In this document: positions 24,162 through 26,666 of the stretch, piece by piece
How the letters are laid out: each line of letters opens with the position of its first letter
How positions within the stretch are numbered: position 1 is the stretch's first letter
NCBI RefSeq assembly: GCF_017743865.1
Contig: NZ_JAGHRJ010000003.1
Span: 558,001-622,000 of the forward strand
Direction: 5' to 3'
Length of the DNA stretch: 64,000 bases
Source of the DNA: Labrenzia sp. R4_2
GTDB lineage: Bacteria; Pseudomonadota; Alphaproteobacteria; Rhizobiales; Stappiaceae
The notes under the pieces: generated by a model
What the model was told of the DNA's origin: nothing
Database searches by the model: none
What the model saw: the letters and a program-made list of their open reading frames with translations, nothing else
Translations under genes and position numbers: made by a program

Positions 24162-24851
24162 GTGGCAAAGATCGATGATTTTCTGAAAAACAGCTTTTCT
24201 TTACAAGGGCTTGATTCGGAATTGGCGCTCGGGCTGTCAAAACTCGCCCGCCCGATAAAAATGGCTGCGAATGCCACTCTTTTCGAAAACGGGGACCCTG
24301 GAAACGGCTGTTATGCTGTTCTGGAGGGCTCTTTGAAGGTGTCGATCCTGTCAGTTGATGGGGATGAGCAGTTGCTTGCGGTTCTCGGACCAGGCGATCT
24401 GGTTGGTGAGCTTGCCTTGCTGGATGGCCGTCCCCGGTCTGCAACGGTGAGCGTTTTGAAAGAAGCGCAGCTGGCATTCATTGAAAAGTCCGCCTTTGAG
24501 CGGTTCGCCGATGAAAACCCCGCCGTCTACCGCCACATGCTGTCCATCGTCGGCAAACGTTTGCGCCATGCCAACGACGTCCTGGCAGCGCGTTCTTTCT
24601 TACCACTTCCAGGGCGTGTCGCGCAGACATTGCTGCAGCTGGCCGAAACGTTCGGCAAGCCTCTCGATGATGGCCGCGTCCTCATCCACTACAAGCTCAG
24701 TCAGGCGGACATTGCCAACATGGCCGGAGCTGCCCGTGAAAATGTCAGTCGGGTCCTGAACGATTGGAAGCGCTCTGGAACGATCAGCCGGATCTCCGGC
24801 TACTATTGCCTGGAACAGGTAGACTTTCTCGAACAAGCTTCAACACTTTAG
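24162..24851 (+). CDS. Crp/Fnr-family transcription regulator
   Basis: 229 residues from a GTG start. The N-terminal cyclic-nucleotide-like beta-roll covers about 13-125, with GPGDLVGELALLDGRPRSATV. The long dimer helix is near 130-150 and the C-terminal winged helix covers about 150-222, with LSQADIANMAGAARENVSRVL. No N-terminal Cys cluster is present, so it is not an oxygen-sensing Fe-S FNR. The GEL-LDGRPRSATV loop is like true CRP phosphate-binding loops, so cAMP is a candidate ligand. It sits beside an nsrR/globin locus, which might mean a role in NO or low-oxygen control (inference). Confidence 0.87.
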   Translation: MAKIDDFLKNSFSLQGLDSELALGLSKLARPIKMAANATLFENGDPGNGCYAVLEGSLKVSILSVDGDEQLLAVLGPGDLVGELALLDGRPRSATVSVLKEAQLAFIEKSAFERFADENPAVYRHMLSIVGKRLRHANDVLAARSFLPLPGRVAQTLLQLAETFGKPLDDGRVLIHYKLSQADIANMAGAARENVSRVLNDWKRSGTISRISGYYCLEQVDFLEQASTL

Positions 24852-24867: not shown

Positions 24868-25278
24868 TCATATCTTCTGCGTGCCGGCCAGGATCGAACC
24901 AAGCGTTTGTTCATTCAGGCTGTCGAGGAACGCCTCCGCCGCCCTCGCCATCGCGCCCTTGAGCGCGCAGCGCGGTAAAAACGGGCAGCTTGCCGGTTCA
25001 TCCTTGAGGCACGCGACCACGCCAAGATCTGGTTCAATCAACCGCACCACATCGCCAATGCGGATGTCATCTGCCTCTTTGGCAATCCGGATCCCGCCGC
25101 CACGGCCCCGGGTCGTTTCCAGGTAGCCGGCCTTGGCAAGTTGAGCCACTATTTTCATGACATGGGATTTCGCCAGGCCAAGTTGCGCGGTCAACTTGTC
25201 CACTGTCTGCGGGGCATCTGATTGGCTGATTGCCATCAGGAGTCTCAAGGCGAAATCACTGGCTTGACTGAGGCGCAT
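24868..25278 (-). CDS. nsrR: Rrf2-family nitric-oxide sensor, NsrR-like
   Basis: 136 residues from the ATG at 25278, which matches the NsrR N-terminus; another ATG eight codons upstream is possible. The winged helix (about 8-65) has GLAKSHVMKIVAQLAKAGYLETTRGRGGGIRI and is followed by IRIGDVVRLIEP. Cys90, Cys98 and Cys104 match the three cluster-binding Cys of NsrR, and Asp8 matches the fourth ligand reported for Streptomyces NsrR. It would bind a [4Fe-4S] or [2Fe-2S] cluster and repress until NO destroys it. It is divergent from a truncated globin gene with an NsrR-type box between them. Confidence 0.85.
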   Translation of the reverse strand: MRLSQASDFALRLLMAISQSDAPQTVDKLTAQLGLAKSHVMKIVAQLAKAGYLETTRGRGGGIRIAKEADDIRIGDVVRLIEPDLGVVACLKDEPASCPFLPRCALKGAMARAAEAFLDSLNEQTLGSILAGTQKI

Positions 25279-25340
25279 TTCCAGAACTTTCAAAACATTC
25301 ATTTTATATGTTGAATTTACCGCGCGCTTCTGTCATTTAA

Positions 25341-25352
25341 AAGATGCATCTT
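25341..25352. promoter_or_regulatory. NsrR-type operator
   Basis: AAGATGCATCTT is a perfect palindrome embedded in CATTTAA...AAATG flanks. It fits the NsrR half-site AANATGCATTT. It lies 22 bp before the globin ATG and 62 bp before the nsrR start, so NsrR likely controls both. Confidence 0.68.
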
Positions 25353-25374
25353 AAATGAATGTTATGAGGCTATT

Positions 25375-25848
25375 ATGCAAATCAAACAAACACCACAGGA
25401 AAAAGGCAGCACGGTCGTCCGCTCCGACGGGGCCTGTGAGGTGCAATACGCCGAAGTCACTCCCGAGACGATCCGGATCCTTGTGCATTCATTCTATGGG
25501 ACTTTGCGCCAGCAACCCCATCTCGGAGAGATCTTTGAAAAGCGCCTTGGCGGGCGTTGGCCGGAGCACCTTGAGAAGATGGAGCGCTTTTGGCAGTCCG
25601 TTCTCCTGAAGAACGGGACCTACAAAGGCAAGCCGGTTCCAGAACACCTGAAACTAAAGGAAGTGGTCAGCTCCGATTATGGCGACTGGCTCGACGTATT
25701 CCGGCCGGTGGCACACGAGACTTTTGTACCGGACGTTGCCGAAGAGATCATCGCCATTGCCGAACGGATTGCTCAGAGCCTGTGGCTCGCAACGTTCGGA
25801 TTTGCCGGCAGTACACCGCCGGCGGAAATCTTTACTGAACAAGCCTGA
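25375..25848 (+). CDS. Group III truncated haemoglobin
   Basis: 157 residues. The pattern is that of group III (trHbP/Ctb-like) globins: FYGTLRQQPHLGEIFEKRLGGRWPEHLEKMERFWQSVLL and a following GKPVPEHL in which His91 is the likely proximal haem ligand. About 25 residues precede the globin fold. Campylobacter Ctb is the studied relative; such globins affect NO or oxygen handling. GAGG precedes the ATG. Two tiny membrane-protein genes follow in the same direction within 20 bp of each other, so they likely share the NsrR-controlled transcript. Confidence 0.86.
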   Translation: MQIKQTPQEKGSTVVRSDGACEVQYAEVTPETIRILVHSFYGTLRQQPHLGEIFEKRLGGRWPEHLEKMERFWQSVLLKNGTYKGKPVPEHLKLKEVVSSDYGDWLDVFRPVAHETFVPDVAEEIIAIAERIAQSLWLATFGFAGSTPPAEIFTEQA

Positions 25849-25860
25849 TAGGAGGGGCAC

Positions 25861-26079
25861 ATGTTACCGGCAATCGTATTGGTGGCCGAAGGTCTGGTTG
25901 TTTTATGGTTCGTGGTCTTCATCGGAATGATGGTGTCGATGTACCTGGATTCCAGATCCATGCCTTTGCCACGCCTCGATGTGGCGGGGCGAACGCTGAT
26001 TGGCAGCGCCAAACTCGCCTTTGCGGTCGGAATGACCGCATTGGCGGCACTGACCTATTATGAAATTCCTATGTTCTAA
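25861..26079 (+). CDS. Small two-helix membrane protein, unknown
   Basis: 72 residues with two hydrophobic helices (about 4-27 and 48-67) around a short polar loop containing DSRSMPLPRLDVAGR. I do not recognise a family. A near-perfect AGGAGGGG site lies upstream of the ATG, 12 bp after the globin stop. Cotranscription with the globin under NsrR control is likely, so a role in NO or haem-linked membrane physiology is a reasonable guess, nothing more. Confidence 0.7.
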   Translation: MLPAIVLVAEGLVVLWFVVFIGMMVSMYLDSRSMPLPRLDVAGRTLIGSAKLAFAVGMTALAALTYYEIPMF

Positions 26080-26096
26080 GTTTGCAGGAGACACTC

Positions 26097-26201
26097 ATGT
26101 TCAGTTCAAAATGGGCACATCGTGGCTTACCCATACTCTTGATCTGGATTGCAGCACCAATGCCGCTTTGGATCATGGCCATTCTGATGCTGATTATCTG
26201 A
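26097..26201 (+). CDS. 34-residue membrane peptide, unknown
   Basis: A short frame with AGGAGA 6 nt before the ATG. The peptide is MFSSKWAHRG followed by a single Trp/Met/Ile-rich hydrophobic helix of about 22 residues that runs to the end. It starts 17 bp after the 72-residue protein gene stop and is too short for usual gene callers. The positive N-terminus suggests cytoplasmic N-terminal topology. It could be a subunit-like accessory peptide of the preceding protein. Confidence 0.55.
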   Translation: MFSSKWAHRGLPILLIWIAAPMPLWIMAILMLII

Positions 26202-26267: not shown

Positions 26268-26666
26268 TTGAGTGAAGAAACACCGCAAGGGGAACTGACC
26301 CTCCGGACAATGGCAATGCCGGCCGACACCAACGCATCTGGTGATATCTTTGGCGGGTGGGTACTGTCTCAGATGGATCTCGCCGGTGGGATTGCCGCGG
26401 GGCAAAGAGCGCAGGGCCGCGTTGTCACGATCGCAGTCGACAAGATGAAATTCATCCGCCCGGTCCATGTCGGAGACGTCTTGTGTGTTTACACAAGCGT
26501 CGGCCGCATCGGGACAAGCTCCATGGAAATCAAACTGGAAGCTTGGGCTTTGCGCCACCGTTTCGGCGGCCGGGAAAAAGTTACCGAAGCGCTTTTCACG
26601 ATGGTCGCCGTTGATGATCAAGGCAAGCCGCGTCCAGTCCCCAAGGACACTCCGGCTCCGCAGTAA
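26268..26666 (+). CDS. Acyl-CoA thioesterase, YciA-like hotdog protein
   Basis: Hydrolyses acyl-CoA to free acid and CoA. 132 residues from a TTG at 26268 with GGAG 8 nt upstream, which gives the YciA length; the frame also opens at a weaker TTG at 26202. The hotdog signature NASGDIFGGWVLSQMDLAGG is clear, with the catalytic Asp in GDIFGG, followed by KFIRPVHVGD and YTSVGRIGTSSMEI. It may be an independent unit after the small membrane genes. It converges directly with the next gene. Confidence 0.88.
   Translation: MSEETPQGELTLRTMAMPADTNASGDIFGGWVLSQMDLAGGIAAGQRAQGRVVTIAVDKMKFIRPVHVGDVLCVYTSVGRIGTSSMEIKLEAWALRHRFGGREKVTEALFTMVAVDDQGKPRPVPKDTPAPQ

Follow-up and report, generated by a model that had tools for sequence, protein, structure and literature searches.

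A predicted NsrR-regulated pair of small membrane proteins encoded beside a group III truncated globin in the Roseibium/Labrenzia group

The gene cluster

The stretch of DNA analysed here (the window, 64,000 nucleotides of contig NZ_JAGHRJ010000003.1 of Labrenzia sp. R4_2, positions 558,001 to 622,000) carries a compact cluster in which a gene for an NsrR-type regulator of the Rrf2 family is divergent from three genes of the plus strand, encoding a group III truncated globin and two small membrane proteins of 72 and 34 residues (p72 and p34, together the pair). The interpretation preferred for the pair is that of a small membrane module under NsrR control, belonging to the defence against nitric oxide (NO), which usually works beside the globin and is not an obligate globin subunit. 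The host genome (coded G000, 5.66 Mb) belongs to the Roseibium/Labrenzia group, to which 'the genus' refers in the following. The features of the cluster are:

24868..25302, minus strand: gene of the NsrR-type Rrf2 regulator (Pfam PF02082, E 7.6e-30), with a probable conserved start at 25278 that gives 136 residues
25341..25363, no strand: predicted 23-bp NsrR-type operator, AAGATGCATCTTAAATGAATGTT, ending 11 bp 5' of the globin start
25375..25848, plus strand: gene of the group III truncated globin, 157 residues (phmmer match to 2ig3, E 5.9e-12)
25861..26079, plus strand: p72 gene, for a predicted two-helix membrane protein of 72 residues from an undescribed family, with an invariant glutamate (E10) in helix 1
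26097..26201, plus strand: p34 gene, for a membrane protein of 34 residues with a single helix, as judged from hydrophobicity, and the core LPxxLxWxAxPxPLW

The coding regions are closely spaced, with 12 bp from the globin stop codon to p72 and 17 bp from the p72 stop codon to p34. The original prediction had placed a regulator gene divergent from a truncated globin gene, with frames of 72 and 34 residues following at short gaps, and both this gene set and its coordinates were confirmed. Scans of the cluster for promoters and terminators gave results at chance level, with one terminator-like stem within the 3' end of the globin gene, so that a shared globin-p72-p34 transcript is proposed on account of the gene spacing. 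The cluster is flanked by a gene for a Crp-type regulator (24162-24851) and one for a YciA-type acyl-CoA thioesterase (26268-26666), and the same two genes flank it in most of the pair-bearing loci of the genus that were read.

The truncated globin

The assignment of the globin to group III, as first proposed, is borne out by its alignment with the Campylobacter jejuni group III globin Ctb (2ig3), its best match in the PDB, in which the FY, IF, EH, HL and WL positions of the haem pocket are aligned. TyrB10 and HisE7 of Ctb are also named in the literature. A related globin is present in 35 of the 37 genomes of the genus.

Two known systems invite comparison. Ctb, which is of the same globin class, is NO-inducible in C. 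jejuni and is regulated by NssR, a regulator of the Crp-Fnr type (PMC3820574), whereas the globin of the window faces an NsrR-type Rrf2 regulator. NsrR control of an operon with a truncated globin has already been predicted for Legionella pneumophila, where glbN forms an operon with lpg2536 behind a predicted NsrR site (Rodionov 2005, PMC1274295); there, however, the companion gene encodes a hypothetical ferredoxin reductase, in contrast to the group III globin and two small membrane proteins without a cofactor motif found here.

The regulator and its predicted operator

Counted from the internal methionine at 25278, the regulator carries Asp8, Cys90, Cys98 and Cys104, as stated when it was first taken for a likely NsrR, and its best match in the PDB is NsrR of Streptomyces coelicolor (5n07, E 4.1e-15), which is related to it in sequence and shares Asp8 and the three cysteines. 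The S. coelicolor protein, however, comes from a host of another bacterial phylum. In NsrR, as its published structure shows, three cysteines and Asp8 ligate the cluster (PMC5411485), Asp8 being that of the partner subunit, whereas RirA, a close relative of NsrR, has a highly conserved asparagine at position 8 (PMC10510648), and the residues of the window regulator, with Asp8 and not the Asn8 of RirA, fit NsrR. Asp8 and the three cysteines are found in the regulators of all 23 pair-bearing loci of the genus, and the same pattern in 11 of the 13 regulators from outside the genus with an extractable frame (17 loci examined), the two exceptions, at L041 and L049, having more widely spaced cysteines. 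The label 'NsrR-type' was chosen because the NCBIfam models of NsrR and RirA score the protein nearly alike, both under cut-off. In the 2005 comparison of NsrR regulons (PMC1274295), the alphaproteobacteria were reported to be without an NsrR ortholog, one case excepted.

The 12-mer AAGATGCATCTT, originally named as the regulator's site at 25341-25352, is present in the intergenic region and incomplete, since it is only the left part of the 23-bp imperfect palindrome of 25341-25363. Compared with the published NsrR consensus, gATGyAT-N5-ATrCATc (PMC1274295), the left half of the palindrome is exact and the right half contains mismatches. Two sites with no more than three mismatches from the consensus used are found in the whole 5.66-Mb host genome, and none with the reversed control. 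The box lies 5' of the globin gene in all 23 pair-bearing loci of the genus (L001-L020, L028, L031 and L078), with 2-4 mismatches, a fit that none of 100 shuffles per locus reached; these and all other box shuffles were mononucleotide ones, which preserve single-base composition only. The conservation of this predicted box, together with regulator residues that fit NsrR, sustains the NsrR-type control first proposed for the cluster.

Outside the genus, the 23-bp box was scored in seven of the eight globin-linked loci, six of which have 2-4 mismatches; the remaining one of the seven, L048, has 6 (1/100 shuffles). The five Pseudovibrio loci have a box with 3-5 mismatches, 157-223 bp 5' of p72, unequalled in shuffles. 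Among other loci in which the pair has no adjoining globin, the box shows 3 mismatches in G583 and 5 in G712 (0/100 shuffles in both), 7 in G350 and G818 (3/100 and 1/100, respectively) and 8 in G725 (9/100). G828, with the globin followed by the pair, has 11 mismatches 5' of p72 (46/100) and 9 5' of the globin (18/100).

In one alphaproteobacterial family (f74) a palindrome that is shorter but has an identical N5 spacing, ATTCAT-N5-ATGAAT, was spotted by eye and then tested on the same sequences. It is perfect 5' of the pair in G350, G725 and G818, 5' of the globin-pair unit of G828 and 5' of the unlinked globin of G712 (0/200 shuffles in each case), and may be the site that this group of regulators uses as operator in the family. 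It is poor 5' of the pair in G712 (3 mismatches, 9/200 shuffles) and 5' of the globins in G725, G818 and G350 (3-5 mismatches, 29-198/200 shuffles). The loci with a perfect copy are L103, L124, L125 and L153, and L146, in which it lies 5' of the globin; at L153 the p72-p34-nsrR genes follow a globin.

The two small membrane proteins

Both small frames are real genes under purifying selection: the pooled ratio of nonsynonymous to synonymous substitution rates (dN/dS) is 0.13 for p72 (17 sequences of the genus) and 0.18 for p34 (15 sequences), and in the same sequences the third codon positions are the most variable ones. The p34 frame of L037 has no ATG in frame.

The predicted model of p72 consists of helices 2-31 and 41-68, with a mean predicted local distance difference test score (pLDDT) of 89.8. 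E10 is invariant in all 21 aligned rows, and residues 5-25 contain one acidic residue on average. The basic residues of p72 lie in the inner loop, with nearly none at the ends, and by the positive-inside rule the protein would form a hairpin whose two ends are outside and whose basic loop is inside. In p34 the basic residues precede the hydrophobic core, a distribution that points to a single helix with its N-terminus inside.

A role of the pair in haem delivery, which the original prediction had offered as an example, is unsupported, there being no conserved histidine or cysteine in the family alignments of either protein (in p72, some histidine occurs in 8 of 21 rows and some cysteine in 8 of 21, at no fixed position). 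A haem-binding membrane partner was rejected as the default explanation on the same ground, ligation by methionine being still conceivable.

The two proteins had been described as unrecognised, and no usable family or fold match emerged from the databases searched. Neither protein of the window has a match in Pfam, NCBIfam or PHROG. Within the families, 20 p34 members have no Pfam match and p34 has no match among PDB profiles; for 20 p72 members the sole Pfam match is that of one member to CbtB (E 5.4), and for 21 members NCBIfam returned six families with one member each, the best being BPSS1780 (E 0.0007), read as chance. Comparison of p72 with PDB profiles yielded nothing beyond weak matches to single helices, for example that of SdhF (E 0.31 and 1.5), a Foldseek search of its model against the PDB a single match (E 8), and a plasmid search none. 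In the open-licence papers searched no description of proteins like p72 or p34 was found, for which there is no name to search by, and the accessible part of the 2005 study of NsrR regulons (PMC1274295) contains no gene like either of them.

Distribution of the pair

p72 was found in 23 of the 61 relatives searched, all of them inside the genus (23 of 37 genomes), and full-length p34 in the same 23; neither is intact in the other 14 genomes, where p34 was called absent from a profile search together with the loci read (the surroundings of the globin were read in part in G014 and G015, and G031 and G036, without a globin match, were judged from the profile search). The globin, p72 and p34 genes lie together behind the box in these 23 genomes and in several other genera.

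In 12 of the 37 genomes of the genus the globin occurs without the pair. A p34 remnant was scored in one of them, G011, and the same C-terminal remnant follows the globin in G010, G020 and G035, as read at the loci. These four genomes form a clade (support 98/98) nested among pair-bearers in a tree of the globin, which is a gene tree with long branches, not a species tree, and was used for this nesting only. At L066, L067, L071 and L076 a PLWIMA-like remnant of the p34 C-terminus follows the globin, with p72 deleted, the two genes having been lost jointly and the regulator kept. In G008, G021, G026 and G029 the regulator, p72 and p34 are all gone from between the crp, globin and thioesterase genes.

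Beyond the genus the pair was accepted in 18 alphaproteobacterial genomes, namely one Pannonibacter, two of the genus g26 (same family), one Cohaesibacter, five Pseudovibrio and, from the families f74, f44, f42 and f206, five, two, one and one, respectively. Conservation of the small frames beside truncated globins in other alphaproteobacteria, which the original prediction had singled out as informative, thus extends to several genera. p34 lies downstream of p72 in all 41 accepted genomes (23 in the genus and 18 outside); in G013 the two coding regions share 4 bases and in G118 they share 16; the loci L025 and L036, which carry globin, p72 and p34 too, were left out of the 41.

Searching the class with the p34 profile, 15 of 385 genomes passed an E value of 0.05, and the four strongest (G000, G350, G118 and G583) were accepted; among the rejected matches, G393 and G395 (of the other 11) and G508 (from an earlier class search) were read and have no small gene of the p34 kind. 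With the p72 profile 16 of 376 genomes passed and the same four were accepted, G363 being the only one read of the other 12. In f74, 6 of 149 genomes passed and five were accepted, G851 being without the pair. Even draws thus gave 4 accepted genomes among 376 of the class and 5 among 149 of f74, and the pair is therefore scattered, not common. In four of the f74 genomes the order is p72-p34-nsrR, with p34 and nsrR overlapping or nearly touching, and in G828 the globin precedes the pair.

Association with the globin and with the regulator

The globin gene lies directly 5' of the pair in all 23 pair-bearing genomes of the genus and in 8 of the 18 outside it. In the other 10 there is no globin beside the pair, and in nine of these, including the five Pseudovibrio, an nsrR-like gene is found beside it. 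Overall, an Rrf2 (nsrR-like) gene adjoins the pair in 23/23 genomes of the genus and 16/18 outside (39 of 41), no such gene being found near the pair in G080 and G583; the pair of G583 has the box, with no regulator gene alongside.

In f74 a related globin is present in 62 of 149 genomes, namely in 5/5 pair-bearers versus 57/144 others (Fisher p 0.011, kinship ignored). In G583 the globin and the pair are on one contig, each with its own NsrR-like box, that of the globin having 5 mismatches (0/100 shuffles), and the scan at the unlinked globin of G725 gave 7 mismatches (1/100), far upstream. In the three Pseudovibrio genomes read (G855, G858 and G860) both globins are at another locus without the box (9-11 mismatches, 30-100/100 shuffles), and no globin was found in G350 and G818 other than a distant one (30-32% identity), near which there is no box. 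At the Pseudovibrio loci L150:1581-3734 and L151:722-2782, crp, globin, thioesterase and a second globin stand in a row, away from nsrR-p72-p34. The pair therefore goes with a globin somewhere in the genome, but its association with the regulator is closer than that with the globin gene. Of the original prediction, the conservation beside globins is thus upheld, whereas a tie of the pair to the globin gene is unsupported, given the 10/18 outside genomes without an adjoining globin and the 12/37 of the genus with globin and no pair.

Candidate links with bd oxidases

The setting, and a likeness to DUF2474-type proteins, suggested that p34 might be CydX or a similar subunit of a bd oxidase. CydX-type subunits are indeed single-helix proteins of fewer than 50 residues from a respiratory and NO-stress setting, and the host genome has cydABX behind an NsrR-like box; they differ, however, in having no profile similarity to p34. 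The candidate was rejected: 20 p34 members have no match in Pfam, the MWYFxW core is absent, the hhalign probability is 0.1, and a separate CydX is encoded at two of the three cydA loci of the host, while the third cydA type, with none by motif, does not follow the pair.

The host's cydA-cydB-cydX operon lies on contig C25 (L100:2066-5751) with a divergent Rrf2 gene whose product has Asn8, not Asp8. A second NsrR-like box, with 2 mismatches, is found at L100:2782-2804, 16 bp 5' of the likely cydA ATG. The operon possibly encodes a bd oxidase that is controlled separately, by NO or by iron. Its box had suggested a common regulon but, in view of the divergent Rrf2 gene and the Asn8 of its product, the operon was not counted as a target of the window regulator.

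Proposed function and alternatives

On the reading that we favour, with a rough probability of 0.5, the cluster is a unit controlled by NO: the globin would dispose of NO, and a p72-p34 assembly would have a separate task at the respiratory membrane, most likely that of keeping a respiratory enzyme stable, or modulating it, in the presence of NO. By analogy with known NsrR, an NsrR-type repressor with a [4Fe-4S] cluster, bound to the 23-bp box, would hold a single globin-p72-p34 transcript off, and NO would damage the cluster and so release the repressor. The globin, judging from its family, would remove NO in the cytoplasm; p72 and p34, produced together, would assemble into a small unit in the membrane. 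As a part of the NO response in its own right, this unit would usually act beside the globin and would not need an adjoining globin gene. The principal membrane system sensitive to NO is the respiratory chain. For this reason, and because respiratory genes, e.g. that of alternative oxidase, belong to NsrR regulons elsewhere (PMC1274295), it is the most likely site of action, and respiratory-chain protection by the pair, another of the roles first suggested, is possible. A bolder and doubtful version holds that p72 and p34, two undescribed protein families, form one complex, an NO-induced alphaproteobacterial membrane module moved as a cassette among NsrR-type regulons, in which the invariant intramembrane E10 and the PxPLW helix would alter an NO-blocked respiratory enzyme, the globin clearing NO and the module keeping electrons flowing.

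The main rival, unlikely as we judge it, makes p72 and p34 dedicated partners of the group III globin, either docking it to the membrane, in which NO and O2 become concentrated, or coupling it to a membrane electron donor. The position of the pair directly after the globin, throughout the genus and in 8/18 outside genomes, speaks for such partners, as do the related globin present in all 18 outside genomes, the bias of f74 pair-bearers towards a related globin (5/5 versus 57/144) and the NsrR-type palindromes that the unlinked globins of G583 and G712 have for themselves. Yet the pair stands without a neighbouring globin in 10/18 outside genomes, the globins of the three Pseudovibrio genomes read lie elsewhere without a box while the pair stays beside an nsrR-like gene, the sole globin found in G350 and G818 is distant and without a box, neither protein has a conserved histidine or cysteine for a redox cofactor, and 12/37 genomes of the genus have the globin and not the pair. 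The remaining alternatives are lesser ones. Feedback by the pair, acting on the NsrR-type regulator or on membrane-level NO signalling instead of defending metabolism, is distinctly improbable; it would suit the p72-p34-nsrR operons of one family, with p34 and nsrR overlapping or almost abutting, and the nsrR-like gene beside the pair in 39/41 genomes, but repressors often adjoin their targets without direct contact, adjacency proving little, and four genomes of the genus retain regulator and globin after loss of the pair. Least credible, and very unlikely, is that the regulator is RirA-like and senses the iron or redox state, the unit answering iron or oxygen and not chiefly NO. RirA is described as a regulator in diverse alphaproteobacteria, and the NCBIfam scores are close; the operator, however, fits the NsrR consensus and the controlled gene is a globin.

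Several observations weigh against the NO-controlled respiratory unit favoured here. The regulator scores 94.5 bits with the NCBIfam NsrR model (PRK11014), below its cut-off of 182, and, near-equally, 91.9 bits with the RirA model, whose cut-off is 193. Some relatives have a poor version of the 23-bp box, with 6 mismatches in L048, 7 in L103 and L125, 8 in L124 and 11 in L126. All 18 outside genomes hold a globin related to that of the window, the class of the distant ones being judged by similarity alone, which leaves room for a globin-dependent role. As for the respiratory target, cydA, the only respiratory family compared with the pair, is present in 37/37 genomes of the genus, and, with cydA types of our own grouping, the pair shows no link to a particular bd oxidase: it occurs in 9/13 genomes with the third cydA type and 14/24 without, and in 5/7 genomes carrying the cydA type that is preceded, in the host genome, by the NsrR-like box.

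The pair is a candidate new part of bacterial NO defence, inherited together and sometimes without a globin beside it, and offers a test of the idea that respiration under NO is tuned by small membrane proteins. If the proposed role is true, an easily overlooked, tiny two-gene membrane module would add a part to the NO defence of marine bacteria.
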